Assembly (NCBI GenBank): GCA_014804615.1
Contig: JAAUZL010000008.1
Coordinates: 190,255 to 254,254, forward strand
DNA length: 64,000 bases
Direction of reading: 5' to 3'
Source of the DNA: Lachnospiraceae bacterium
GTDB taxonomy: Bacteria; Bacillota; Clostridia; Lachnospirales; Lachnospiraceae
A model generated the notes under the pieces. It saw only the letters and a program-made list of their open reading frames with translations, made no database searches and was not told the DNA's origin. A program made the position numbers and the translations under genes. The stretch's first letter is position 1. Each line of letters begins with the position of its first letter. Shown here one piece after another: positions 24,299 through 64,000 of this stretch.

Positions 24299-24434
24299 AT
24301 TTACCCTTCTTTCCTATTTGTTGCCTACAGCTTTCCTGCTCATTTTTTTGATTATACCACTTCCACTCTCCCCTTACTACAAAAATATAGGGAATATGCC
24401 GATTCTTTTTTATAACATTTCTTCAATAAAAAAG

Positions 24435-24568
24435 TGGATGGGGCAGGACTCGAACCTGCGTTGTTTCTGTGTGACGGATTTACAGTCCGCTGGTCTACGC
24501 TCCGCTTCGGTCGTTGCTGAACATGGTCCACCGGACCATAGCAACCTCGCCGCTAGGCATACCCATCC
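24435..24568 (-). tRNA. tRNA-Tyr (GTA) interrupted by a 52-nt insert in the D-arm
   Basis: Exons: GGATGGG.TA.TGCC.TAGCGGCGA.GG / CA.GCGGA.CTGTAAA.TCCGT...GCAGG.TTCGAGT.CCTGC.CCCATCC.A. Acceptor 7/7 paired; D-stem TGCC/GGCA forms only when 24493-24544 is removed. Confidence 0.8.
24493..24544 (-). repeat. 52-nt structured insertion element, copy A
   Basis: Minus strand TTGCTATGGTCCGGTGGACCATGTTCAGCAACGACCGAAGCGGAGCGTAGAC; aligns without gaps over 54 nt (including flanking bases) with copy B, 46/54 identical. Confidence 0.85.
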
Positions 24569-24609
24569 GTGGAGTGACCAGGGGGAATCGGTCTTCGCTA
24601 TGGTCACAA

Positions 24610-24682
24610 TAGCTCCTGCGGGACTTGAACCCAATACCCCCGGCTTGAAAGGCCGGTGTCCTGACCTTTAGACCAGGGGACC
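24610..24682 (-). tRNA. tRNA-Glu (TTC), possibly degenerate
   Basis: Anticodon arm CCGGC.CTTTCAA.GCCGG and D-arm GGTCTAAAGGTCAGGAC are good, but acceptor GGTCCCC vs AGGAGCT and T-stem TTGGG/CCCGC contain mismatches. Confidence 0.5.
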
Positions 24683-24740
24683 TCACAGCAGACATTTTCA
24701 GCCTGCTGTCTTATTGTTACTTTCCTTTCCTATCTTCCGT

Positions 24741-25004
24741 TCATGCACTGATCTGTACTCGCGCTGCCATATCAATGACCAAAATATCATCCAGACATAC
24801 CTGCAGAACCGCTGCAAGCACCACAAGATTGTCTATGGTCGGCAGGGCAGCTCCTTGCTGCCACTTGTATATTGCCTGCGGCGTAGCAAACCCAAAAATA
24901 TCCTGCAGATCCCTTACCGACAATCCTGCCTGCTTCCGCAGCCTTGCTATGTTCTGTCCTGTCTTTACCATATCTATAACCGGCAGATTCACCATGATCC
25001 TCAC
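24741..25004 (-). CDS. XRE-family HTH regulator
   Basis: GQNIARLRKQAGLSVRDLQDIFGFATPQAIYKWQQGAALPTIDNLVVLAAVLQVCLDDILV. Confidence 0.85.
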   Translation of the reverse strand: MRIMVNLPVIDMVKTGQNIARLRKQAGLSVRDLQDIFGFATPQAIYKWQQGAALPTIDNLVVLAAVLQVCLDDILVIDMAARVQISA

Positions 25005-25038
25005 CTCCTGTTATTTGAAATAAATATCCAGGCGGCAA

Positions 25039-25162
25039 TGCTCCATATGGGGTGCTGTGGTCCAGTGGACCACGCCCAGCACCGACCGGAGCGGAGCGTA
25101 GACCTTGAACCCATGACCCCTCGATTAAAAGTCGAGTGCTCTCCCAACTGAGCTAATGGAAC
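25039..25162 (-). tRNA. tRNA-Lys (TTT) interrupted by a 51-nt insert in the T-loop
   Basis: GTTCCAT.TA.GCTC.AGTTGGGA.GAGC.A.CTCGA.CTTTTAA.TCGAG.GGGTC.ATGGG.TTCAAG / C.CCCAT.ATGGAGC.A. Acceptor fully paired (one G:T); T-stem ATGGG/CCCAT and 7-nt loop restored only when 25053-25103 is removed. Confidence 0.85.
25053..25103 (+). repeat. 51-nt structured insertion element, copy B
   Basis: Plus strand TGCTGTGGTCCAGTGGACCACGCCCAGCACCGACCGGAGCGGAGCGTAGAC; homologous to copy A but antisense to its host tRNA. Confidence 0.85.
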
Positions 25163-30022: not shown

Positions 30023-30200
30023 TTGCTTATCTCTCCATAAATTCTAATTTATCATTAAAAACAAGGGCATGGCAACCGCCATGCCCTACATTTTTATCGT
30101 TCTAACGATTCATCAATTCTCTGTTTCTGTTCTTTCAAATCGTTCTGCTTCCCATACAGATTATTGCACTCTTTACAGATTTCCTTCATGAGTTCGCATC

Positions 30201-30210
30201 ACTCGAACTC
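30201..30210. repeat. guaA-type att core (relic or left junction of RT unit)
   Basis: ACTCGAACTC, identical to the core at the 3' end of guaA (58705-58714 neighbourhood). Confidence 0.6.
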
Positions 30211-30312
30211 GGCGTGTCCTTCGATACTCTTAACTATATTTGTTTAAGCCTTGTGCAAATTCACGCCTGCTTTTGCTTCAATTACATCATTTATTTTGAC
30301 TTGCTGATTTTC

Positions 30313-30331
30313 TGTTGCCAAAGTGTTGCCA
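30313..30331. repeat. Arm-type repeat pair of RT unit
   Basis: TGTTGCCA x2, start-to-start 11 nt; inverted copy TGGCAACA at about 31971. Confidence 0.5.
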
Positions 30332-30347
30332 CTATACTCTGAAACTT

Positions 30348-31889
30348 TTACTTATCTTTTACAATTTTTGCAATTATTTCCGAAGACAAACCACTTGTAT
30401 TTTGTGTTACGTTTTGTAAAAAAAACCTTCTTTCATCTTTTGGAAGTAGTTCTGAAGCAATTAGTAATGCTCTTTGTCCCCATGCTCCAAGTCCATTATA
30501 GTCTTGCTTCAACTCGCGTATCCATGACTTCTGCTTTGCTGAATATGCTGCTAAAATTATTTCTCTCTTTATATAATCTGATGAATTGTTATACATTTCT
30601 ACCAAACGTGCAATATGATTAAATTTATCTGTTTTAGCAAATAAATTAAGAATAGTTATTTGTAAAAATTCATTTGATCTGATTATAGGATTCTTCAACA
30701 TTCCCAGCAACTTTTCACCTATATTTTCAAGAACTATATTGCTTTCCTGCGCAATAGAAGAAAAATATAATGCAATATCACTAATTGCAGGCATCAAATT
30801 ATCAATTTCCCTAATGGTAACATTAATTGCTGTATCAACACCAACATTGCTCAGTCTTCTAAACAACCATCTAATCCTTTGATAATCCTTATTTTCAGTT
30901 AGATAGCTCATTAATATGTTTTCTATACGTTCTTCACTAAATACTTCTTTATCAACCTCATTAATATTGTCTATACCAATTATTGCATATGGATCTGAGG
31001 AATATGTATTGATTATCTTGATCATTTCCTCTTCTAATTCACTAATTGGATTATCTTTAAGCATATCATTACATTTTTGTAAGAAATCTTCTTTAGTATA
31101 TATTTTAGTTTTATGCCTCTGCATATTCAATTTTAAAGAATCTAGTACCTTTGCCAATTCATATATTACAATCTGCCCTTCGCTTTCTGAATTGACAAAA
31201 ACAATTATATCGTCAGAATATCGGCAATAATCATATCCTTTCATTAACAAATTTTCATCAAGTGGTATAAGACACATTTCAGCAAACAAATGCATTGCAT
31301 GTGGCCCTATCGGGATACCTTGCGATACAGTCTGTGTAGTATTTTGCAACATTCTTCTAATTGATTTAATAATTTGATTCTCAAATCCACAATCAATTAG
31401 TTGATTTTCTAATGTATGATGATAAATTCTATTATAAAAATCAGCAATATCTATGTAAACGGCAAAAGTATACTGGTTCATTTTTTCTTTTGACGTGATC
31501 CAAAAATTTTTCCATGCTTCTTTCCTATCATACATATTACCCTCAGAGGTTGGTTTAAATCTATAATTAAATACCTTTTTTTCCTCTATTGGTACACGCT
31601 TTTCTTCTATTTTATTTCCATATTGGTATATTAGTGCTACAATTAAAATATTATCAATAGGATCTAATTGTATTGCTACTCGATATGAATATTCATCCTT
31701 AGGTATAATAAACCTTCGATATTGTTGCCAATTGTATTCTTCAATTTCAATTTCCTTTAACCTATTAACCAAATATTCTTCATTTTCAAGCAAAATTTCA
31801 TACTCTTTCAATGTTGGAAACAAATCCGTATCCTTTTCTTTCTTGATATGAATTAGAGCCCATCTTATTGATGTTTCTTGTAATTTCAT
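30348..31889 (-). CDS. Reverse transcriptase of the Abi/DRT-like defence type
   Basis: Motif A YIDIADFYNRIYHH; motif B SQGIPIGPHAMHLF; motif C YCRYSDDIIVF; long helical C-terminus. Start MKLQETS at 31889 proposed. Confidence 0.8.
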   Translation of the reverse strand: MKLQETSIRWALIHIKKEKDTDLFPTLKEYEILLENEEYLVNRLKEIEIEEYNWQQYRRFIIPKDEYSYRVAIQLDPIDNILIVALIYQYGNKIEEKRVPIEEKKVFNYRFKPTSEGNMYDRKEAWKNFWITSKEKMNQYTFAVYIDIADFYNRIYHHTLENQLIDCGFENQIIKSIRRMLQNTTQTVSQGIPIGPHAMHLFAEMCLIPLDENLLMKGYDYCRYSDDIIVFVNSESEGQIVIYELAKVLDSLKLNMQRHKTKIYTKEDFLQKCNDMLKDNPISELEEEMIKIINTYSSDPYAIIGIDNINEVDKEVFSEERIENILMSYLTENKDYQRIRWLFRRLSNVGVDTAINVTIREIDNLMPAISDIALYFSSIAQESNIVLENIGEKLLGMLKNPIIRSNEFLQITILNLFAKTDKFNHIARLVEMYNNSSDYIKREIILAAYSAKQKSWIRELKQDYNGLGAWGQRALLIASELLPKDERRFFLQNVTQNTSGLSSEIIAKIVKDK

Positions 31890-32064
31890 TTTCTTATCCT
31901 CTATATCTTTAAATTTTATATGTATCAGCGAATAAATCAAATTACATAATACTAATTTGATTGGCAACATACCATTTCAAAAAAATTAGTAATAAATATA
32001 ATGCTTACACCACAGACAATCCCCTAGACTACCTACCATATATAATAAATAATATACTCTTGTA

Positions 32065-32076
32065 CTACTCGAACTC
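32065..32076. repeat. guaA-type att core between RT unit and TOTE unit
   Basis: CTACTCGAACTC identical to the guaA 3' end. Confidence 0.7.
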
Positions 32077-32179
32077 TTTTTTCTGTTGTTGGCAGGGTGT
32101 ATTTTTTATTGCTTCCCCTCGCAAAACCGTATCATTTTGATCCGGTTTTATTACTTGTTTATGTGGTTTCAAAGCTGGG

Positions 32180-32197
32180 GTACCCAAATTGTACCCA
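32180..32197. repeat. Arm-type repeat pair of TOTE unit
   Basis: GTACCCA at 32180 and 32191 (11-nt spacing); inverted TGGGTAC at 36161. Confidence 0.5.
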
Positions 32198-32253
32198 GAC
32201 GATTTGAGTATTATTTCAAATACCTTCTCTGCAATCTCATCGGTGCTATTTTT

Positions 32254-35220
32254 CTACATTGTCTCACCCTGATATTTTTCATTTCCAAATGTCATCTCAA
32301 GTAGTTCGTTCGCAATCTTACCATCCACAATACGCATCAGATTATCTTCTGCATCTTCTTTTCCCAAGAAATTCATACTTCCATACCAGACCACTTCGTG
32401 GTCTATAATGCAATAATGCTCACAATAATCTTGTACAAGATTCATCTCGAAGCCAGCCCTTCGCATCTGTTCCTGCAATTCCTGCCAGTATGCACTGTCT
32501 CCATAGCCATAGCAGTCTGGTTTCCATGTGACAATGCCTATGCTAATTCCTGCCTCCTGCTTTTCCCTGAGTATATGAATCATATCATATACTTTTTTGG
32601 TACTAATAGCAGGACTGGAAATTATAATCTCTTTCTCTGCGGAGAGTAAATCTTTCTGGTAGATATCCGCGTAATTATCTATGCCAAAAATTGCATTAGT
32701 CGTTTGTTTATGTGCGTCAATCCCAGAAAAAATATCGTATCCAATCTGTTTGTACGCCTTAAGTCTTTTATGATACATCCTGTCAAACATAGATATATGA
32801 CTATCAACATAATCATATATAATCACGCTTTTCTTGCCCTCATAATCCCTATTCAAACGTCCGGCATACTGCTCCACAACGCCCTTCCATGCCACAGGGG
32901 TTGCCATGATAAGAGTATCCAGCCTCGGATAATCGAATCCTTCTCCTATCAGTTTACCTGTCGCAACAAGGATCATGCTTTCCTCAGACTTGACCTGATC
33001 CATCTGTTTTAAAATCTCTTTATGCTCTTTATTTGAATTTCTGCCGGACAGTAAAAAGACTTTGTCTGCATAATTTATCAGCTGTTGATACAATCGCTGT
33101 GAATGCTCCACATATTTGGAAAGAACCACTGGTGTCCTTCCATCATTCACGCATTGTTTCACATCCCTTATGATTAATTCGTCTCTGTCTTCATTATCAC
33201 GGATTATTTCATATGCCTCGTTTGGATGCATTTTATCCTGTGAAAATCTCGGCGCCACCACTCTTGTAAAGCGCGGATAAACAAGATGCTCTATCCCCTG
33301 CTCCTTTGCCCTGTCCTTTGAAGTATATTGATAACGAATTGGTCCAAGAAGCATATAATTTATTTTTTCCAAACCGTCACCTCTAAATGGTGTAGCCGTT
33401 ACTCCATACACATATTTTGCATTTGCTTCCTGCAAAATATCGACTATTGTATCCGATGCGGCATGATGACATTCATCTATCAAAATGAGTCCATAGTCCC
33501 TTAACCGCCTATGATATTCACCATTCTTACAGATTGAACCAACCATCGCGATATCAATGATGCCTGTAGTGGAATCGTGAGGTCCCTGCAATTTCCCAAT
33601 TATACTTTTTCGTCTCTTCTTACGACCTGTGGGTGTCTCATACTCTGGAAGTTCTTCATTAATATATAAGAACTTTTCCAGTGCCTCTTTCCATTGTTCC
33701 ATCAATGCTGATGACTGAAGAAGAATAAGTGTGTTTACCTGCTTTTTCGCTATAACATTACAGCACACCACCGTCTTTCCAAATGCTGTGGCAGCATTAA
33801 GAATTCCGTTGTCATGTTGAAGAAGCTTTTCTACAGCGGATATCTGTGATTCTTTCAATTCACCAATGAATTCCACATGAATCGGCTGTCCTTTGCTCCG
33901 CTTATCATCTATTTCATACTCCATATTGGCTTTTTCACACTCTTCGATTATATTCTCCAAAATACCTCTTGGAACTATGATGAATCCACCTTCATCACGC
34001 CCCAGATAAATATATCTGTAATTCTCAAAATTAGACAATCCCATAGCTTGATTTTTATAAAACACAGGATTGTCAAACGCCGCCATTCTTCTGATTTGAT
34101 TTTGCATTCTGGGTTGTAAATTCACTGCATTCACATACACACCGTTTGACAATGTAATATGCAGAATCCCATCAACATCTTCCTTTTGAAAGTGCTTTGC
34201 TTTCTCCCATGGCTTTTCATTGTTGCTTTCAAAAATATCTTTGTAATCCGCAACAGTATATGTACTTCCTTCTGTCCATTCCTTTATCTTATCCTCAATA
34301 AACTCTTTCGAAAGTTTTTTCTTGTTAAGCAACACTTCCCACTGATTCGGATATGCATTCCAGTGTTCATCTATGAAGGCACTGTTTCCTTCTTTTATTG
34401 CCTGTCCCTGTAATGGCAGCGCAATCAGATTACCCACTCCGCCTTCCGGAAGATGATCCTGCATGGGCAACATGCGGTCATAAAAGCGAAATGACTTTAA
34501 ATTTACAGACTCTGCTCCTTTATTTAACAGAGCAAAACCAAATTTTCTTGCAAAATCAGCTTCTATGGGTTTTTGGAAGAATATCCAAAGATGTGCGCCC
34601 TTCCCCGAGCGTGAACGCTCTACCAACGCATCAATTCCGTTAATATCACAAATTTTTCTCAGGCTGTCTACTTCTTCTCTCCACAAATCGTCATCATTCG
34701 CAAAATCGCTTTTTCCTGCACCTTTTTCATGATTATCAAAATCGAAAACAATAAATCGGCAGGTATCATCTGCTAAAAGAGGAAAAACACCTATGACATC
34801 TGTGGCATCCTCTGAATTTCCTTTCAAATGGTCAATAATCTGTTCCTTTTTTAACTCCTTATATGCCCGTCTCTGACAATCCTGACATCTCACCTTACTT
34901 CCGGTAATTCTCGGGCAGCCATTTTTCCAAAAGTTATAGCATTGTGTATAATAATTTACTTCCCCAGTAGATTTCTTTATGGTACGCTTGCTATATACAT
35001 CTGTACGTCCCCAAAACATACTAAAGAACGCTTTTGCTTCTGTTTCCGTAATTTCTCTTGGTATAATTCTTGCTCCTTGATTTGGATCATATTCATTGCC
35101 GATGTCATCTATATCTTTTATCGAATAGAAAATCCCTGCATCCGCCAGCAGATTCTTCAAATATTGGTTTTCCTTTTCCAGACATTGTAATCTTTTTTCC
35201 AATTCTGAAATGCTTCTCAT
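32254..35220 (-). CDS. TOTE-conflict-system-like protein: AEP primase + SF2 helicase + PLD nuclease
   Basis: N-terminal primase-like (FIVFDFDNHEKG..VERSRSGKGAHLWIFF); helicase AATAFGKTVV, LILIDECHH, GVTATPFRGDG; C-terminal HYCIIDHEVVWYGSMNFLG. Confidence 0.85.
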   Translation of the reverse strand: MRSISELEKRLQCLEKENQYLKNLLADAGIFYSIKDIDDIGNEYDPNQGARIIPREITETEAKAFFSMFWGRTDVYSKRTIKKSTGEVNYYTQCYNFWKNGCPRITGSKVRCQDCQRRAYKELKKEQIIDHLKGNSEDATDVIGVFPLLADDTCRFIVFDFDNHEKGAGKSDFANDDDLWREEVDSLRKICDINGIDALVERSRSGKGAHLWIFFQKPIEADFARKFGFALLNKGAESVNLKSFRFYDRMLPMQDHLPEGGVGNLIALPLQGQAIKEGNSAFIDEHWNAYPNQWEVLLNKKKLSKEFIEDKIKEWTEGSTYTVADYKDIFESNNEKPWEKAKHFQKEDVDGILHITLSNGVYVNAVNLQPRMQNQIRRMAAFDNPVFYKNQAMGLSNFENYRYIYLGRDEGGFIIVPRGILENIIEECEKANMEYEIDDKRSKGQPIHVEFIGELKESQISAVEKLLQHDNGILNAATAFGKTVVCCNVIAKKQVNTLILLQSSALMEQWKEALEKFLYINEELPEYETPTGRKKRRKSIIGKLQGPHDSTTGIIDIAMVGSICKNGEYHRRLRDYGLILIDECHHAASDTIVDILQEANAKYVYGVTATPFRGDGLEKINYMLLGPIRYQYTSKDRAKEQGIEHLVYPRFTRVVAPRFSQDKMHPNEAYEIIRDNEDRDELIIRDVKQCVNDGRTPVVLSKYVEHSQRLYQQLINYADKVFLLSGRNSNKEHKEILKQMDQVKSEESMILVATGKLIGEGFDYPRLDTLIMATPVAWKGVVEQYAGRLNRDYEGKKSVIIYDYVDSHISMFDRMYHKRLKAYKQIGYDIFSGIDAHKQTTNAIFGIDNYADIYQKDLLSAEKEIIISSPAISTKKVYDMIHILREKQEAGISIGIVTWKPDCYGYGDSAYWQELQEQMRRAGFEMNLVQDYCEHYCIIDHEVVWYGSMNFLGKEDAEDNLMRIVDGKIANELLEMTFGNEKYQGETM

Positions 35221-35361
35221 CAGGAACTCCTTCCTGCTCCTCAAAACAAGATATACTTTTTATCCTTTACCACCCTTTTCATCTCACTAATCCACTACAT
35301 CATACAGTTTTTATATTGTTCAAAGCATTTTTTAGAAGCAGCGGCTATAAATAGAATAGAA

Positions 35362-35766
35362 CTACACTGCAATGATACAGCTTTCCTCATAAAGCGGAAT
35401 TTTAGAATCATGAGTAATAAATTTCAGTCCATCTGCTTTTGCCTGCGCGATCATAATACGATCAAACGGGTCATTATGTACTTGACCCTGATCATGATAT
35501 ACCAAAGTTTCCAACATTTTTATGTGATTATCAGCAATAGGCAGCATTCGATACCCCATCTCTCTGCATAAATCTGATAACCGTGAGCCACTAATATGAA
35601 TTTTATCCGGCTTCGCCATATATTTAATCGTTGTCTCCCAAATAGACGCAGAACTGTAAAAAATATCATTTCCTGCATCTACGATCAGTTTTCTGGCTTG
35701 ACTGGATAACTTAGGATTATCGTCCAGCGCCCAGAGGATAATATGCGTATCCAATAGCAGCTTCAT
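35362..35766 (-). CDS. PIN-domain toxin (VapC-like)
   Basis: MKLLLDTHIILWALDD...SSASIWETTIK...DPFDRIMIAQA. Confidence 0.93.
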   Translation of the reverse strand: MKLLLDTHIILWALDDNPKLSSQARKLIVDAGNDIFYSSASIWETTIKYMAKPDKIHISGSRLSDLCREMGYRMLPIADNHIKMLETLVYHDQGQVHNDPFDRIMIAQAKADGLKFITHDSKIPLYEESCIIAV

Positions 35767-35996
35767 TACATACCTCCAAATAATTTCGCAATTTCAGGAT
35801 TCATTTCGTCAAAGTCATAATCATCCTCATATAAGTCCTGTCCTTTCGCAATGCCAATTCTCTTAGAAACCAGCGTTGCTCGCTTTTCTGTAGAATCCGA
35901 TTGCATGAAGCGGTTAATCATTTCCAATATGAACTGTAGATTATCTTCTGACAATCCATTTACCTTTTGAACTACCTGTTCTTTTAATGTCAACAT
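35766..35996 (-). CDS. Cognate antitoxin of PIN toxin
   Basis: Small ORF overlapping the toxin start; KRIGIAKGQDLYEDDYDFDEMNPEIAKLFGG C-terminal tail. Confidence 0.85.
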   Translation of the reverse strand: MLTLKEQVVQKVNGLSEDNLQFILEMINRFMQSDSTEKRATLVSKRIGIAKGQDLYEDDYDFDEMNPEIAKLFGGM

Positions 35997-36209
35997 GAAA
36001 GCTCCGCCTTTCTCCAAAACAAATCTATTTGCTGTTTATATTATACCGTCAATACGAGTTCCATATTTATTATATACTCAAAAGGCTTTTTTCTCAATCC
36101 GATTCTCTGTTTTGATTTAATAAACTGTTCCAATTATCCGCTCATTGTCCCACTTCCAGTTGGGTACAAAATTTCCAATGGTTTCTACAACATACAAATA
36201 ATACGGATA

Positions 36210-36240
36210 ATGGCAGATAATCATATAGACTATCTGCCAT
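36210..36240. terminator. Hairpin at right end of TOTE unit
   Basis: ATGGCAGATA-N11-TATCTGCCAT, 27 bp from the next att core. Confidence 0.55.
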
Positions 36241-36267
36241 TTAAAATAATCTATGCAAAAAAGTAAT

Positions 36268-36280
36268 TACTCGAACTCAA
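36268..36280. repeat. att core, left end of 22-kb integrated element
   Basis: TACTCGAACTCAA, 13-bp identity with 58703-58715. Confidence 0.8.
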
Positions 36281-36649: not shown

Positions 36650-39600
36650 CTATTTGAAATAACCCATTTCATCGAGAAATCGAGATTTGGTCACACGAAT
36701 TTGTTTTTCTTGTGCTTTATTTTCGTTAATCCAAGATTTAAACTCATCAGCTGACCACTGATTCCTTAAAACAGTTAGATGAATTGCAGCGCATTGATCG
36801 AATTCATTTTTAGGATCGCTTATATTTGTTGCAATGGCCTCTGATAGGCCATCAACTTCCTGGATATGTAAGGAGGGTGAACAGATACTATAGAGGGCCC
36901 AAGAGAATGCACGTTTTAAACCAAGAGGCGTATCTGTATCTGTATTTACCCACAGCTTAATGAGTCTATTTAAAATATCTTCATCTAAACCTAATGGAAT
37001 AATATTTGTTTCCCCATAACCCGACCAAGCAATACACCAAGCAGCACAAAAACAAGATAGAACGTCATCGCTTTTAAGGAGCCGAAGAAGGGATGAGAAG
37101 ATATTGTGAAGATTGATTTCATTATTATATTCTAACCGAGCAAAACTATTCCACATCATCATTAAAGCACCAGTAATCTGATCTTCAAAGCAACTGCATT
37201 CATTCAATAGATGTTCAATTGTTGAAAGATTAAAATCACCCCGTTCCTCATGACATATCTCAATCCACGACTCACAAAATTCAAAAATATATATAGGGTT
37301 AAGCGTTTTAAAAAGATTAACTTCGATAAATTCTCGATAAGTGGATCCATATTTACTTTTTATTATAGTACTAAAAATATACAAATTTTCTATCAGAAGA
37401 TAATCTTTCTTTTCAATTCGGACTTGATGTTCTTCAAATACTCTCTTTCTCCATATCATTTGAGTAAAAGACTTTTCTAATTGCTCCTTGCTCATAGGCA
37501 CTTCACTCGCAATACAGTTTCCTAAATGCAGAATGGCAATATCTGCCAGTGTATCCTTTTTAGTCGGAGGGTTTGACTCGCAAGTGTTAATAAGATATTC
37601 GATAACCGGCTTTGTCCATCGACCAGAAAGAACAGCGGTCAGAGGAATGACCTCGAACCAATGATCATCTGACATGTGTCCTTTAATTATTGAAAGAAAA
37701 GAAGAGTTTTCTGGGTCGGAAACCCACGCTTCAGCAATGGCCTTTGCAGTAAGATACTCTTGAAAACTTAAGTGTGAAAACTCATAAGAAGGTTCAAGAT
37801 TACCACTTTCATTTTCTTCAAGCCCTAATTGAATTAGTAAGCTACTGCGCTCTTCTACTTGGTCAATAAATTTGTATGGGGATACCTGGGTATAACCTAA
37901 TATCTCAGGTAATGCTTTTCTAGCTTGGATAATATATTGTTGTAATTGGCTCCGAGTGACTTTCTGTTGACCTTGTACTGTCATTGAATAGGCTACAAAA
38001 GCCAGTTGAGGTTCTGTCTCGTCTAAGTCCAATCGTTCGTGGGCGGCGGCGTTCCAGGTAACCAGAAGAAGCTTAATCATCTCCTCATATAAACGGCACT
38101 TTTTGGTGGGGAGGTAACCCACCCAGCGTTTTACAAAAAGTAATGTAGTCAATAGCAGCGGATTTTCTGCCAAAGCAACAATTCGAGGATCACCGATAAT
38201 AATGTCGCAGACTTTTTTTGATTCTTCCGTTGTCTGACTAGACTTCCCCATAATTGCTTCATGCCATTTTAAGCTAAGATATCGTATTTGTGTTTCATCT
38301 AAACCTGCAATAGAGTACTGCTTACAGTAACTGGTTAATGTTCCAGCCACGGTACGGAAACCAGTCTCGCGGGAAGTAATAATCAAATGGACATTAGGAT
38401 AAGTTGCTACAAAGGTTCTTAATTGATTAACAAAACAAATTCGATATTTTTCAACTAATATCTCATCTAGGCCATCAATCAAAAGCAACATATGACCACC
38501 TTGCAATCGTTCTTCAATCAAAGAATTGAACGCTGGTGCATGAAATACAATTTCAGCTCGGTGAACAATAGTTCCAATTATATCTAAAATGCTTTTGGTT
38601 GCGTTATCACCTAAATCACGGCAACGGATATACACTGGGAACCAGTCATATGCAGGTAGTTTATCATTTACTTTTTTACGCCGTTTAGGATCAGCATATG
38701 CTAAAGCTATTCGACGGATCAATGTCGATTTACCACCGCCAGGCTTAGCTAGAATTGCTACTCGGGATGTCTTGGTCAAAACTTCTCGTATAGAAGCTGA
38801 CTGTATTGTAGATTCTTTATTTGACGCACCTGTATCATTATCCTGCTGCTTTAAAACTTCGTAATTGAATGACAATGGCACAAATATACTCTCCAGACTA
38901 ACTTTAATTGCACCAGCTTCCTTATCAGTTGGCATACCTTCAAACTGAATCTCTCCCAATTCAGTTTCTAAATACTTGAAGTATGCTTCTTTTGCTCCTT
39001 GCTTGTCTAAGCTAGCATCATGAATAGTAGATAAATAGGTAAGACCCGAAAAAGGATAGACTCTTTTATCTGCTTTTGCCAAAAGGGATTCAGCAATGCT
39101 ATTAAGTAGTTGATTCCCGTCGGCATGAACGAAAGTAAAATGAGTTGCACTTTGTTGTGGGCAAAGGGAGTAATATAAAACCCATATCCACCCATATTCA
39201 CATGCAATTAAATCTGCTTCTTCGCATAAAGATAGTGTCTCATCTTTTGGAAGTGTAACCGCACTAACGGCTCTACTCAATGAACAGAGCATATTGCCTT
39301 TGATTAGTTCACGTACAACATCTGTAGGTCCCAGTAAAACCAATTCATTACGCTCGTTCCTTTTTTTTCGTACAAGAGAGCGTTCGCGTTCCTGTTCCAG
39401 GGCAGTTGCCGTGAAGCCAGATTGAGATATAAAATATCCAGTAACACTACATCCTTCTTGCTCAAAATTACCACGTTCAACATCAAGAGTACCAACAAAT
39501 TTATTGATATCAGCACCCCCTACTTTTTCTTTTTGAGCTTTACTTTCTACAAGGGCGTAGCGGTTTTCTATGCGATGTTTCAACACCATATCTACTTCTC

Positions 39601-40264
39601 GTCCCGCTCGTTGAACATCAAAGACTGCTTCCCCAAAGCCAAGGGAATGAAGTACATTATGCACTAAATAATTAAATAAGTCCCCCTTCTTATTTCGATT
39701 TGTCTCTAAAAGAAGAATACTTCGAATAATTTCATCCTTTTCAACAGAAATGCTATCAATGCTTCCAGGAAAAGATGGGCGATTCTCATGTTTTCCATCA
39801 ACACTCTGTTTTGTACTATTGATTGCGTTGTTAGGAAAAGTTCCTTTCTTACGTGGATTTTTTGTATGTTCAATTGCGTTGAGTAGATCTTTTTCTGCAA
39901 TTTTTTCCTCACCAACGGAAAATAGGTCGATGTAGACTGTTGTATCATATAATGGGTCGGGGGATACATCTTCTATGCGAATAGGTAAAAATTTCTTAAT
40001 ATTACCTTTCAAATGAGCGTTAAAAGCTGTTTGGAACTCTTTCTTGCAATATTCAGATTCCCAAAATGCAGATGATAAAACTGCAATGTAGTTTTCTGAG
40101 CATTGGAGGAATTCGCTCATTCGTGAAATGAAATCGTCCCCCGGCGAGATATCCCAAGCTTGAAGATAGACGGTATATTTATTTTCTTCCAATGTTCCAG
40201 CAATCCATTTAGCCCAATCTTTGTCATTTTTATTGTAACTTACGAAAAAATCTTTTTTATCCAT
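36650..40264 (-). CDS. TIR + PD-(D/E)XK nuclease-like + NACHT NTPase protein
   Basis: N-term DFFVSYNKNDKDWAKWIAGTLEE..YTVYLQAWDISPGDDF..SSAFWESEYCKKEF (TIR); REVDMVLKHRIENRYALVESKAQK (D-xn-ExK); NACHT AILAKPGGGKSTLIRRIA and MLLLIDGLDEI. Confidence 0.88.
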   Translation of the reverse strand: MDKKDFFVSYNKNDKDWAKWIAGTLEENKYTVYLQAWDISPGDDFISRMSEFLQCSENYIAVLSSAFWESEYCKKEFQTAFNAHLKGNIKKFLPIRIEDVSPDPLYDTTVYIDLFSVGEEKIAEKDLLNAIEHTKNPRKKGTFPNNAINSTKQSVDGKHENRPSFPGSIDSISVEKDEIIRSILLLETNRNKKGDLFNYLVHNVLHSLGFGEAVFDVQRAGREVDMVLKHRIENRYALVESKAQKEKVGGADINKFVGTLDVERGNFEQEGCSVTGYFISQSGFTATALEQERERSLVRKKRNERNELVLLGPTDVVRELIKGNMLCSLSRAVSAVTLPKDETLSLCEEADLIACEYGWIWVLYYSLCPQQSATHFTFVHADGNQLLNSIAESLLAKADKRVYPFSGLTYLSTIHDASLDKQGAKEAYFKYLETELGEIQFEGMPTDKEAGAIKVSLESIFVPLSFNYEVLKQQDNDTGASNKESTIQSASIREVLTKTSRVAILAKPGGGKSTLIRRIALAYADPKRRKKVNDKLPAYDWFPVYIRCRDLGDNATKSILDIIGTIVHRAEIVFHAPAFNSLIEERLQGGHMLLLIDGLDEILVEKYRICFVNQLRTFVATYPNVHLIITSRETGFRTVAGTLTSYCKQYSIAGLDETQIRYLSLKWHEAIMGKSSQTTEESKKVCDIIIGDPRIVALAENPLLLTTLLFVKRWVGYLPTKKCRLYEEMIKLLLVTWNAAAHERLDLDETEPQLAFVAYSMTVQGQQKVTRSQLQQYIIQARKALPEILGYTQVSPYKFIDQVEERSSLLIQLGLEENESGNLEPSYEFSHLSFQEYLTAKAIAEAWVSDPENSSFLSIIKGHMSDDHWFEVIPLTAVLSGRWTKPVIEYLINTCESNPPTKKDTLADIAILHLGNCIASEVPMSKEQLEKSFTQMIWRKRVFEEHQVRIEKKDYLLIENLYIFSTIIKSKYGSTYREFIEVNLFKTLNPIYIFEFCESWIEICHEERGDFNLSTIEHLLNECSCFEDQITGALMMMWNSFARLEYNNEINLHNIFSSLLRLLKSDDVLSCFCAAWCIAWSGYGETNIIPLGLDEDILNRLIKLWVNTDTDTPLGLKRAFSWALYSICSPSLHIQEVDGLSEAIATNISDPKNEFDQCAAIHLTVLRNQWSADEFKSWINENKAQEKQIRVTKSRFLDEMGYFK

Positions 40265-42069: not shown

Positions 42070-42507
42070 TCAATACACACTTTTCTCTTCCCGTTCCAGA
42101 ACATGCCTAAACTGCTCCAACTCCAATTCCGCTTTCCAGTTCCTCCTTTCTGCTGACCTCTCTTTATCAAATAGATAAGCCGCACCATCCAATATATCTA
42201 CAATCGTTACCACAAGTGCCAGAAAATCCCGTTTCAATTCCTGATAACCTTCTTCCGACAATGAGAAATCGCCCGACTGTATTTGTCCGGCGATTTCTTT
42301 CATAACTTCCTGCATTTCCTGTAAGGCATCCACTATTCGTTGTATATTTTCCCTCTTACCGACTACGGTAATATAGGAGTACACACAGCTTCTTGTAATA
42401 AAATCTTTCTTATAAATACCGCTTAATGCGGCTCTCTGTTCTATAATTGCCCTCGCCCATGCACTAGGACGAAAGGCTATCGTTGATTCCTTATGCTTTC
42501 CTGGCAT
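42070..42507 (-). CDS. MobC-like / relaxosome-type protein
   Basis: STIAFRPSAWARAIIEQRAALSGIYKKDFITRSC..., ribbon-helix-helix-like N-terminus followed by helices. Confidence 0.45.
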   Translation of the reverse strand: MPGKHKESTIAFRPSAWARAIIEQRAALSGIYKKDFITRSCVYSYITVVGKRENIQRIVDALQEMQEVMKEIAGQIQSGDFSLSEEGYQELKRDFLALVVTIVDILDGAAYLFDKERSAERRNWKAELELEQFRHVLEREEKSVY

Positions 42508-43594
42508 TGCTATCTTCCTCCTCTTCAACTACTCCTTCTACAAGACAATTTAACTGCTCCGCAAGATTCCTCGATTGATCTGGGTATAGGTGAGAATATG
42601 TATCGAGTGTTGTCTGAATTTTTTCATGTCCAAGTCTCTCCGAGACAAGTTTAGGCTGCACCCCTAATTTTGAAATTAAAAGTGATGCATGGCTGTGCCT
42701 CAGATCATGCAATCTGATTTTTTTCACGCCAGATAATCCTGTTCCTCTAATCATTTCTTTCTCTAAATATGATTTTGTTATCATGAACAATCTGTCATTT
42801 GCCATCATGCCATACAGTTTGCTGACATACTCTTCTAATTCTGCCACCAGAAAATCTGGAAGAGTAATAATCCTTTTTCCCTTTACGGTTTTTGGTTCTG
42901 TAACCACATCCCTGCCATTGATTCTCTGACAGGATTTCGTGATTGATAAAGTCATTTTGTCCGCATCAAAATCAGCCAGCGTAAGAGCAAGCAGTTCTCC
43001 AAGGCGAATGCCCGTCCAATAAAGTGTCAGAAACGCATAATAAGAGACAGGCTTATCCTTTACAAACTCAATAAAAGTTTCAAATTCTTCCTGTGTCCAA
43101 AACCTCATTTCTTCTGCCTTTCCCTTTCCCATAGATCCCGCCTGTGTACATGGGTTTCTAGGCAAGTCATAATACCTTACAGCATAATTGAATATTGCGC
43201 TAAGCTGATTATTGATAGTTTTTAGGTAGGTTTGAGAATATCCCTGTTTCATAATGCTATTCTGCCACCGCCGTATATCTGCCGCTGTTATATCGGCAAT
43301 CTTTTTATTTCCAAAATATGGCAATACTTTAAGTTCTACAATATAATCCTTAGTTCGCACTGTATTTTCCCGCAAACGTTCTTTCATATCGTCCCTGTAA
43401 AGCTGCCAGAATGAAGCAAAATCCATATCCAAATTATGTGATTGCTGATTAATAAATTTATTTGCCCATTCAGTTGCCTCTTTCCTAGTTTTGAAATTAC
43501 GTTTATGCTTTTTAATATTCTTTCCCCTATAATCCTTATAATAGAATTGAATATCCCAAAGTCCTTTTTCATTTTTTGTAACAGTCATATTCAT
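42491..43594 (-). CDS. Tyrosine recombinase / integrase
   Basis: Arm-binding AP2-like N-terminus; catalytic TGIRLGELLAL, HDLRHSHASLLI, LGHEKIQTTLDTYSHL. Confidence 0.95.
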   Translation of the reverse strand: MNMTVTKNEKGLWDIQFYYKDYRGKNIKKHKRNFKTRKEATEWANKFINQQSHNLDMDFASFWQLYRDDMKERLRENTVRTKDYIVELKVLPYFGNKKIADITAADIRRWQNSIMKQGYSQTYLKTINNQLSAIFNYAVRYYDLPRNPCTQAGSMGKGKAEEMRFWTQEEFETFIEFVKDKPVSYYAFLTLYWTGIRLGELLALTLADFDADKMTLSITKSCQRINGRDVVTEPKTVKGKRIITLPDFLVAELEEYVSKLYGMMANDRLFMITKSYLEKEMIRGTGLSGVKKIRLHDLRHSHASLLISKLGVQPKLVSERLGHEKIQTTLDTYSHLYPDQSRNLAEQLNCLVEGVVEEEEDSNARKA

Positions 43595-53351: not shown

Positions 53352-53918
53352 CTAACCCAGTGTCGAAATTAGATTCCTGGCATCACTTATGTACTCTGAC
53401 ACCAAAGCGGTCGTATTACTATCTTCTCCGTTAAGTTCTTCTTCCAATTTTTTAATATATTCAAGCATCTCCGCTTCAATTCGATCTCTTTCCTGTAGTT
53501 CTTCCCGTGTCAGCTTCTCTTTCTCTTTATACTTAGATAATTCCTCTTTCGATTCATCTATTTTATCCATACATTCTTTAATCTTCTTTTTAATATCCTG
53601 CTCCTGCCTCTGATACTTATTCTCATACACTTTCGAAGCATCAACATACCCTTCCCTTTTCCCCTGATCGTATGCCTTCTCCTGCTTCTTTTCCTGCGCT
53701 GCTCCTGCCGCAACCCCAACCGCTCCTGCCGCAGCCGCAGTAGCCGCAACAGTTCCTGTTGATGCTGCCATCATCCCAAGTCCAGCCGACAGCCCAACGC
53801 TAGTCGCTCCAATGGCACTAGATGCCACAGCAAAACCCGCTGCTGGAAGCACCACCGGCGCAGCTACAACTGCTCCTACTGCACACACACCACCTAAAAC
53901 CCATTTCCCGAATCCCAT
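53352..53918 (-). CDS. Hypothetical protein: Gly/Ala-rich hydrophobic N-terminus + coiled coil
   Basis: MGFGKWVLGGVCAVGAVVAAPVVLPAAGFAVASSAIGATSVGLSAGLGMMAAS... then charged helices. Confidence 0.65.
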   Translation of the reverse strand: MGFGKWVLGGVCAVGAVVAAPVVLPAAGFAVASSAIGATSVGLSAGLGMMAASTGTVAATAAAAGAVGVAAGAAQEKKQEKAYDQGKREGYVDASKVYENKYQRQEQDIKKKIKECMDKIDESKEELSKYKEKEKLTREELQERDRIEAEMLEYIKKLEEELNGEDSNTTALVSEYISDARNLISTLG

Positions 53919-53939
53919 ATTTATCTCCTTCCTACTATC

Positions 53940-54028
53940 TTAGTGAAGTTCCAACAATGCTTCCCCACGCTTATTCCACTCCATGCCTTCACTAACCCAC
54001 TGTCCAACTCTTCCAATGCCTCCACAGA
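53940..54028 (-). pseudogene. Duplicated 3' end of the TerB-like gene
   Basis: Minus-strand RVGQWVSEGMEWNKRGEALLELH* equals the C-terminus of 54645-55061 (EQWVSEGMEWNKRGEALLELH*), with a 1-nt indel upstream. Confidence 0.8.
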
Positions 54029-54540: not shown

Positions 54541-54644
54541 ATTCTATCCCCCTTTCTATAACTTCATATATTTTGCGCCGATCTCAAGATTACTCCTGCA
54601 ACAGCCCATTTTCAGAATCTTATACTCATGTCCTCCCTCTTTAC

Positions 54645-55061
54645 TTAATGCAGTTCCAACAATGCTTCACCACGCTTATTCCATTCCATACCTTCACTAA
54701 CCCACTGTTCAACTTTTTCTAATGCTTCCACAGATATACCCATTTCCTGACACATATCCCGAATTTCATTCCGTTCTGTATCCGAATAGTCGTTATCTAC
54801 CCAGCACAACTGAACAGCTTGTACCAAGAAGAACATCTTTTCCCGATCAGTTTCAAAATGGAATGTAATCTCATTGGTTTCATCTTTCAACTTCTCCAAG
54901 CATTCAACTTCCGCTTCTCCCAATTCCAAAACAACAGCCACTTGACGATAGAAAACAAACTCATTCTCATCCACAATGCCGTCTGCCTGAGCCAGTCTGA
55001 TCAATCCTTTCAAAAAATTAACCCTTGCTTCTCTTGTCTGTAACACTTCTTTGATCTCCAT
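54645..55061 (-). CDS. TerB-like protein
   Basis: FLKGLIRLAQADGIVDENEFVFYRQVAVVLELGEAEVECL...WVDNDYSDTERNEIRDMCQEMGIS. Confidence 0.75.
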   Translation of the reverse strand: MEIKEVLQTREARVNFLKGLIRLAQADGIVDENEFVFYRQVAVVLELGEAEVECLEKLKDETNEITFHFETDREKMFFLVQAVQLCWVDNDYSDTERNEIRDMCQEMGISVEALEKVEQWVSEGMEWNKRGEALLELH

Positions 55062-58701: not shown

Positions 58702-59994
58702 CTACTCGAACTCAATCGTAGCCGGAGGTTTCGGGCTCATATCATAGCAAACCCGATTCACGTTCTCCACCTCAGCCAAAATCCGTTCCGTGATCTTCTC
58801 CAGCACATCCCAATCCACTTTCTCAATTGACGCCGTCATCGCATCGATGGTATTGATTGCCCGAATGATTACCATATACTCAAACACCCGTGCATTATTT
58901 TTCATACCCACCGACTTAAAATCCGGAACTACAGTAAAATACTGCCATACCTTTTTATCCAATCCGGCCTTTGCAAATTCCTCCCGCAAGATCGCATCCG
59001 CCTCACGCACTGCCTCCAGTCTGTCTCTGGTGATCGCGCCCAGACATCTCACGCCCAACCCCGGTCCCGGGAACGGCTGGCGATATACCATATCATGCGG
59101 AAGTCCTAATTCCACGCCGCAGGCACGCACCTCATCTTTAAAGAGCTGCTTCAACGGCTCTACCAATTCAAACCTCAGATCTTCCGGAAGGCCGCCCACA
59201 TTGTGATGGGATTTCACCATCTTCGCTGTCTTGGTACCGCTCTCAATGATATCCGGATAAATGGTTCCCTGGCCTAAAAAGTCGATTCCTTCCAGTTTTC
59301 TTGCTTCCTCTTCAAAAACGCGGATGAATTCACCGCCGATGATCTTGCGCTTCTGTTCCGGATCCGCCACGTTCTCCAGCTTACTCAGGAAACGCTCGGA
59401 AGCATCCACATAAATCAGGTTTGCATGAAGTTCATCCCGGAACACTTTTACAACACTTTCGGATTCATTCTTGCGCATCAAGCCGTGGTTTACATGTACA
59501 CACGTTAACTGCTGTCCAATGGCCTTGATCAGCATTGCCGCCACCACAGAAGAATCCACGCCGCCGGACAGGGCCAGAAGTACCTTCTTATCTCCCACCT
59601 GCTGCCGGATCAGCTCAACCTGATCTTCGATGAAATTCTTCATATTCCAGTTAGCCTCTGCGCCACAGTCTTCAAAAACAAACTTTTTAAGCGCCTCCTC
59701 ATCAGGCATAGCAGCAAGCTGCCTCTCGCATTTCGACTGGGGATAATCTATGGAAAGCATGGGAATACCCATATCGTAAAGCTCCGGCCTGACTTCCACA
59801 GCCTGTCCATCCACTATACGGTTTTCTCCGCCATTTAGCACAATACCTTTTACATTCTGTAAAGCTTTCAATTCGTCCGCGGTAATATCATGGGGATGGA
59901 TCTCACTGTACACCCCAAGATCACGAACTGCCCTGGCAATAACGGTGTTTTGGGTACTGCCCAAATCCAAAATTACGATCAAATCCTGCTTCAT
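58702..59994 (-). CDS. guaA: GMP synthase paralog with degenerate/truncated glutaminase domain
   Basis: Intact ATP-pyrophosphatase domain ([32 protein letters not shown]) but the N-terminus reads MGIPMLSIDYPQSKCERQLAAMPDEEA where a GICYGxQ nucleophile motif would be expected; 430 aa. Confidence 0.85.
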   Translation of the reverse strand: MKQDLIVILDLGSTQNTVIARAVRDLGVYSEIHPHDITADELKALQNVKGIVLNGGENRIVDGQAVEVRPELYDMGIPMLSIDYPQSKCERQLAAMPDEEALKKFVFEDCGAEANWNMKNFIEDQVELIRQQVGDKKVLLALSGGVDSSVVAAMLIKAIGQQLTCVHVNHGLMRKNESESVVKVFRDELHANLIYVDASERFLSKLENVADPEQKRKIIGGEFIRVFEEEARKLEGIDFLGQGTIYPDIIESGTKTAKMVKSHHNVGGLPEDLRFELVEPLKQLFKDEVRACGVELGLPHDMVYRQPFPGPGLGVRCLGAITRDRLEAVREADAILREEFAKAGLDKKVWQYFTVVPDFKSVGMKNNARVFEYMVIIRAINTIDAMTASIEKVDWDVLEKITERILAEVENVNRVCYDMSPKPPATIEFE

Positions 59995-62512: not shown

Positions 62513-63961
62513 CTACTCAAGCTCCACCGTCGCAGGCGGCTTTCCAGTACAATCATACAGCACCCGGTTGACTCCCTTCACCTCATTCACGATCCGATTC
62601 GCAACAATACCCAGCACTTCCCAGGGAAGCTGCGCAGCCTCCGCCGTCATAAAATCACTCGTCTCCACCGCCCGCAGTGCCACCGCATAATCGTAGGTCC
62701 TCTCATCTCCCATGACACCCACGGACCGCATATTCGTAAGCGCCGCAAAATACTGCCCCAGTCCTTTGTCCACGCCGGCCTTGGCAATCTCCTCCCGATA
62801 GATATAATCTGCATCCTGCACGATCCGCACCTTCTCGGCAGTCACTTCCCCGATAATGCGAATGCCAAGTCCCGGTCCCGGGAACGGCTGACGGAACACA
62901 AGATGCTCCGGAATCCCCAACTCCAATCCGGCCTTTCTCACTTCATCCTTGAAAAGCATACGAAGAGGTTCAATGATCTCCTTAAAATCCACATAATCCG
63001 GCAGACCACCCACATTGTGATGAGATTTGATCACGGCAGACTTGCCAAGGCCCGACTCGATCACGTCAGGATAGATCGTTCCCTGCACAAGAAAATCCAC
63101 CGTACCGATCTTTTTTGCCTCTTCCTCAAAGACGCGGATAAATTCTTCCCCGATAATCTTACGTTTTTGCTCCGGCTCGGTAACGCCGGCCAGTTTTTGA
63201 TAAAACCGCTCCTGTGCATTGACGCGGATAAAATTCAGATCATAAGACCCGTTCGGCCCGAAAACAGCCTCCACCTCGTCGCCCTCGTTTTTCCGAAGCA
63301 AACCGTGGTCCACAAACACGCAGGTCAGCTGCTTGCCCACTGCCTTAGCCAGAAGGACTGCTGCCACGGAAGAATCCACGCCACCGGAAAGGGCGCACAG
63401 CACTTTACCGTTTCCCACCTTACTGCGGATCGCCTCGATCGTCGTCTCCACAAAGGAGTCCATCTTCCAATCGCCTTTGCAGCCGCAAATATTCATCACA
63501 AAGTTTTTCAGCATGGTCATGCCCTCTACGGTATGCATGACCTCGGGATGAAACTGCACCGCATACAAGCCCTTTTCCGGACATTCCATCGCGGCTACGG
63601 GACAGACCGGCGTATGTGCTGTCACTTTGAAATCTGCAGGCGCTTTCTCAATATAGTCCGTATGGCTCATCCAACAGATCGTTTTCCCGGACACACCCGC
63701 AAATATCGCTGTACTCTGATCTACCTCTACCTCAGTTTTCCCATACTCGCTCACAGGCGCAGTTGTCACCTTGCCGCCCAACAGATGCGCCATCAGCTGA
63801 GAGCCGTAGCAGATACCCAGAATCGGAATACCAAGCTCAAAAATTTCTTTCTCACATAACACAGCGCCCTCCCCGTACACACTGTTGGGGCCCCCGGTAA
63901 AGATGATCCCCTTGGGGTTCATCTCTTTTATCTTTTCAAGGCTTAAACTGTAAGGATGCAC
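62513..63961 (-). CDS. guaA: GMP synthase (glutamine-hydrolysing); 5' end may extend past the window
   Basis: [20 protein letters not shown] nucleophile motif, [40 protein letters not shown]. The apparent Met may be internal. Confidence 0.95.
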
Positions 63962-64000
63962 CTCACAGTATACATTACATTCCCTGACTCTCCGCGCGAT

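Follow-up and report, generated by a model that had tools for sequence, protein, structure and literature searches.

The window, a stretch of 64,000 nucleotides of Lachnospiraceae DNA, contains an intact reverse transcriptase (RT) of the DRT8 family. As judged from the sequence, a CIME-like cassette of 1.87 kb without an integrase contains this RT as its only gene and forms part of a tandem array of the guaA type. The enzyme is a divergent member of a known family and the cassette is an unusually minimal variant of an already known mobile-element type. We consider it probable that the unit constitutes a single-gene Class 1 antiviral system of the DRT8 type, in which the intact RT would produce untemplated DNA and the guaA-core cassette would be moved in trans.

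The RT gene and its product

The RT gene and the elements next to it were located in the window as follows.

30053..30200 (+): A, 3'-terminal piece of an IME gene (truncated), adjoining the RT cassette on the left and joined directly to C in the related locus L126
30201..32076: integrase-free cassette of 1.87 kb with the RT only, bordered by two direct core copies
30201..30210 (+): core 1, ACTCGAACTC, which reads GAG TTC GAG T, the 3' end of guaA, on the opposite strand
30211..30334 (+): B arm, a dispersed repeat with GTTGCC-type direct repeats at its end; also terminates guaA-targeting IMEs
30348..31889 (-): DRT8-family RT, 513 aa, with the RT domain at about residues 1-280 and the helical C-terminus at about residues 284-512 (Drt8 profile, homolog alignments, AF2 model, Foldseek)
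31890..31970 (-): in-frame continuation of the ORF upstream of the start codon, probably not translated, with promoter-like -35/-10 elements (31940-31913) and an RBS
31963..32066 (+): D arm, starting with TTGGCAACA and containing a degenerate dyad; forms the right end of the RT cassette, outer limit approximate
32067..32076 (+): core 2, ACTCGAACTC
32077..32200 (+): C arm, with which the neighbouring (TOTE) cassette begins on the left

The open reading frame 30348-31970 (-) was uninterrupted over 540 codons, and all three RT motifs claimed in the preliminary description were found in it, i.e. motif A (YIDIADFY), motif B (SQGIPIGP) and motif C (YSDD). The match to Pfam RVT_1 was far beyond chance (1.5e-17), and the catalytic residues D147, D226 and D227 (513-aa numbering) were invariant in an alignment of 64 homologs. 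The reading frame as first described stands, its start probably does not. The true translation start is very likely M28 (31889), because the homologs begin there and an AGAGGA RBS and the promoter-like pair precede it. The 27 surplus codons upstream of M28 extend into the D arm. Flanks of 176 bp and 138 bp had been given for the gene, and these lengths were correct when counted from M28 and from the stop codon to the cores (about 31890-32065 and 30210-30347, respectively).

The PADLOC profile Drt8 matched the protein in full length with 494 bits (residues 29-539, profile positions 1-491 of 493). This surpassed every other RT family, the next-best profile being RT_UG21 with 168 bits. The AlphaFold model (mean pLDDT 93.4) showed an RT domain followed by an all-helical C-terminus (residues 284-512, high confidence), which bears out the long helical C-terminus proposed earlier. 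A fusion of an RT domain to an alpha-helical HEAT-like repeat domain is the hallmark of Class 1 of the UG/Abi enzymes. The best Foldseek matches in the PDB were DRT6, Abi-P2, DRT4, AbiK, UG15 and AbiA with modest whole-chain TM-scores of about 0.45-0.56; a profile search of PDB sequences likewise put Abi-P2, DRT6 and UG15/DRT4 on top. Because DRT6, Abi-P2, DRT4 and AbiK are the nearest solved structures, the predicted fold places the RT with the Class 1 UG/Abi enzymes and not with retrons or group II introns. Thus the initial assignment to the UG/Abi-type RTs was confirmed and narrowed, to Drt8 by the profile and to the Class 1 helical-repeat architecture by the structure.

The window RT shares with DRT8 the full-length profile match and the layout of a single RT with a long helical C-terminus. 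It differs in that it is at most 51% identical to any homolog found and is enclosed in a one-gene, att-bounded cassette. DRT4, DRT6 and UG15, i.e. single-gene Class 1 DRTs, have the same two-part fold, are its top structural neighbours and consist of one gene without an ncRNA, yet they are only about 14% identical to it. DRT4 has been described as a single-gene system (PMC13213688). AbiK and Abi-P2 are abortive-infection polymerases with a helical C-terminus and close structural matches, but have only 13-20% identity to the window RT. AbiK was solved as a Y44F variant, too. In contrast, the DRT8 alignment has no invariant tyrosine near the N-terminus, while Y375 in the helical domain is invariant in 64 of 64 aligned sequences. 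The Class 1 enzymes examined to date synthesize DNA without a nucleic-acid template, sometimes with protein priming (PMC13174585); the mechanism of DRT8 is given as not established (PMC13213688, PMC13314766).

Homologs and origin

Single-sequence scans of genome and viral contigs returned no homologs because of sequence divergence. An alignment query retrieved 80 homolog loci from Bacillota, Cyanobacteriota, Pseudomonadota, Bacteroidota and others. The nearest homologs were from Caldibacillus (50-51% identity) and Jeotgalibacillus, and in the tree the window RT joined these two weakly (92/93). Since the RT is without a close homolog (best 51%), the conservation tests rest on distant relatives. 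In a 299-genome sample of its family the RT gene was not detected in any other genome, and the G+C content of the cassette is 29% compared with 39% for the window. Both observations fit an acquisition from outside.

A cassette bounded by guaA-derived cores

The layout in the window is A / core / B-RT-D / core / C-TOTE with arms of about 100-130 bp. Around the RT, copies of the core ACTCGAACTC start at 30201 and 32067; two more were found at 36269 and, in the 3' end of a guaA-like gene, at 58704. These are four cores in a single orientation within 28.5 kb, where about 0.1 would be expected from the genome frequency of the inner nine bases of the core. As in CIMEs and guaA islands, the RT unit is bordered by attL/attR-like ends with matching arms, whose core equals the 3' end of the target gene, and it holds neither integrase nor transfer genes. 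Between the two cores no ORF of at least 80 aa was kept besides the RT. The idea that the RT is the only cargo within att/arm sequence is therefore upheld by the ORF content, and in addition by the cores, the arms, the A-core-C junction in L126 and the different cargo in L122 (see below). CIMEs have been defined as att-flanked elements without integration and transfer genes (PMC5704250), and because the RT unit has these properties we refer to it as CIME-like. In congeneric genomes all four arms (B, C, D and E) recur as dispersed repeats. We also considered a MITE insertion as the source of the flanking repeats; this was ruled out, since the junction of the arms lies at a fixed core of 10 bp, left- and right-hand types are combined in different ways and the core sequence equals the end of guaA. 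The guaA match also made us abandon the idea of an att core derived from a tRNA gene.

The 3' end of guaA is an established target: Tn5801 inserts there with an 11-bp core (PMC4844618), and several IMEs use the same site (PMC5704250). The RT cassette has in common with such insertions the core taken from the guaA end and the association with elements of the tyrosine integrase family. Yet Tn5801 is far larger than the RT cassette (25 kb), encodes its own integrase and has a core of 11 bp. CIMEs in tandem accretion arrays are also att-flanked, devoid of integrase and transfer genes and located beside IME-derived sequence; the RT unit differs by having one gene only, a size of about 1.9 kb and membership in a recurrent set of small units with common arms. 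Gene cassettes of integrons resemble it in being small, in having one predominant gene orientation and in relying on a trans-acting tyrosine recombinase, which we infer for the RT cassette. However, no attC site or IntI was found; the RT cassette has two long arms and a guaA-derived core, and the integrases examined were of the Arm-DNA-bind_4 type.

Arms and cargo in related genomes

In L126, which is from another species with 75-78% identity in A and C, these outer flanks met directly at the core. In L122, with flanking genes 94-95% identical, a different 6.7-kb cargo was located left of the same C arm. More generally, the genes between RT-type arms in related genomes were unrelated and often of the defence kind. 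Integrase-free units with B and D/E ends held an OLD/GajA-like nuclease (L130), a 316-aa gene (L157) or, in L124 and L137, further small genes. Of the 40 ORFs in 14 units, 35 ran in the guaA direction, with the reservation that ORFs within one unit are not independent.

In L161 guaA and a B arm with its core are separated by an IME that has an integrase, and L157 has a tandem array directly behind guaA; in both the core is at the 3' end of guaA. Because of these two loci we take B to be one end of guaA-targeting IMEs. Thus the RT unit looks like a non-autonomous relative of these elements.

Arrays of several core-bounded units were also seen in L124, L125, L127, L157 and L160, with DUF4297-HerA, a KAP NTPase (PDC-S20) and uncharacterized genes; near B arms, several assembly contigs of related genomes come to an end. 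The D/E arms (window 36159-36268; L122, L124, L130, L136, L157, L160) share a conserved dyad, ATGGCAGATA...TATCTGCCAT, in which some of the changes are compensatory; it may be either a recombinase site or a foldable hairpin. The papers searched on guaA or CIME defence cassettes contained no description of such arrays.

Noncoding RNA, partner genes and alternative explanations

The preliminary description held that any template ncRNA must be short or overlap the arms. The small flanks on which this was based are real, and the statement can be sharpened. Outside the shared arms only about 14 bp (end of B to stop codon) and about 72 bp (D to start codon) of RT-specific noncoding DNA are left, therefore a dedicated template ncRNA is unlikely. 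The flanks of the window RT had no match in Rfam, and their folding was no better than that of shuffles (z 0.29, -0.37, -0.82). The cyanobacterial RT of L058 shared 75-76% DNA identity with those of L018-L020, confined to the stretch from start codon to stop codon, and no conserved flank was found outside the RT gene in this comparison. Thus structure, Rfam and flank conservation were all negative for the conserved structured cis ncRNA of Class 2 UG/Abi enzymes. In seven homologs the noncoding DNA was at most 150 bp on both sides. Judging from these flanks, the likelier situation is that there is no RT-specific ncRNA. We searched for a recurrent partner around 84 homolog loci, and no neighbour family appeared in more than four. 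A scan of 120 neighbours yielded defence genes at scattered loci (HerA, ietAS, GajB, methyltransferases), without a recurring partner. A review table pairs a PNP-domain protein (Cap17) with DRT8, and because of this pairing some DRT8 systems may have a partner (PMC10952713). In four Nostocales loci (L018, L019, L020, L068), and in these only, a conserved gene for 880-907 aa is located directly upstream of the DRT8 RT; it is missing beside the RT of L058.

Against this background we weighed other readings of the enzyme. The RT might copy a short flank-encoded RNA in a Class 2-like manner, with the ncRNA in the 5' or 3' arm or in the transcript of the gene itself. Flanks of 138 and 176 bp exist and DRT2, DRT3 and DRT9 do use ncRNAs (PMC13213688), but the architecture and the structural neighbours are those of Class 1 and the flanks, which are not unusually structured, consist mostly of arms common to unrelated cargo, so we regard this as improbable. 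Still less credible is a joint system of the RT and the adjacent TOTE primase-polymerase/helicase gene. The two adjoin on the same strand, 364 bp from the RT start, and both encode nucleic-acid enzymes. Yet a core and two arms intervene, which puts them into different cassettes, TOTE-like genes are not recurrent beside DRT8 homologs and L122 has the TOTE cassette with other cargo in place of the RT. In view of the att core between them, the TOTE gene was rejected as a partner. There is next to no probability that we are dealing with the RT of a group II intron or a retron. The RVT_1 domain and a weak group II profile match are compatible with such an origin, but the scores were 68.9 bits for group II against a cut-off of 300 and 32.8 bits for the retron profile St85 against a cut-off of 235, far below the Drt8 match. 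Neither a maturase nor an endonuclease domain was detected with Pfam, and RNA families of introns or retrons were likewise not found.

The cassette, too, can be read in another way, as the eroded remnant of an ICE or IME, whose other parts were lost by chance and which is now immobile with fossil cores. CIMEs have indeed been described as decayed elements (PMC5704250), the integrase of the window differs from those of the B-arm elements and some cores within the genus are degenerate. On the other hand, the RT is intact and its two cores are identical, the close relative L122 has a different cargo at the same site, and in several units with the same arm types one gene or a small number of genes is preserved intact, mostly co-oriented (the 35 of 40 ORFs above). 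On balance we consider a mere remnant rather unlikely. A far-reaching alternative would be an integron-like, trans-mobilised system of small, mostly co-oriented cassettes with a guaA-3'-end core and paired arm types, which shuffles single anti-phage genes such as the DRT8 RT among Bacillota. We put this forward tentatively, as a possibility with about one chance in three. If it was true, the borders of a cassette would delimit the smallest functional unit of the respective defence system.

Proposed action and mobility

Our preferred reading remains the self-contained DRT8-type RT in a trans-mobilised cassette. By analogy, the enzyme is most likely a single-gene abortive-infection RT making untemplated DNA like DRT4, DRT6 and AbiK. 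The RT is probably a complete defence system because the cassette carries essentially the RT gene alone; it would work without a guide RNA or a partner gene. DNA synthesis would proceed without a nucleic-acid template, as with DRT4, DRT6 and AbiK, and would probably be protein-primed with Y375 as a candidate priming residue. Phage infection may trigger the RT or stabilise its DNA product, and the build-up of DNA would then halt the infected cell. The cassette itself would move by core x core recombination, catalysed by the tyrosine integrase of a guaA-IME acting in trans.

A natural unit of one gene argues that the RT alone suffices, so that a template-independent mechanism can be put to a direct test with a clone of 1.9 kb. 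The att-bounded arrays point to a way in which single genes may enter or leave defence islands, and the cassette borders could help to delimit minimal defence systems in related genomes.

Neighbouring elements of the window

To the right of the RT cassette the window contains the following elements.

32067..36278: second integrase-free cassette with a TOTE primase-helicase-PLD gene (32254-35244), a small ORF/PIN pair (35362-36017), the E arm (36159-36268) and core 3 (36269-36278)
42491..43594 (-): tyrosine integrase (Arm-DNA-bind_4, SAM, Phage_integrase) of the third, guaA-proximal element; candidate trans-acting recombinase
58702..59994 (-): guaA-like gene (GMP_synt_C), 430 aa, whose 3' end carries core 4 (58704-58713)

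The integrase of the window is only about 46% identical to the integrases of B-arm elements, hence the cognate recombinase may be absent here. The guaA-proximal element (36279-58703) comprises, besides this integrase, a NikA-like mobilisation protein (weak match) and phage-type genes (Rad52/YqaJ/DUF932). At 36650-40264 a 1204-aa TIR-Mrr-NACHT protein is encoded, apparently another defence gene. A second guaA-like gene is present at 62513-64000, close to the one at 58702-59994. In the region 24318-25151 there is a tRNA-Glu gene (24610-24683) with a 55-bp inverted repeat nearby (24492-24546 vs 25104-25050, 85%). Finally, a 130-bp direct repeat of 83% identity (53900-54028 and 54605-54734) surrounds an ORF of 143 aa and may represent a small cassette.
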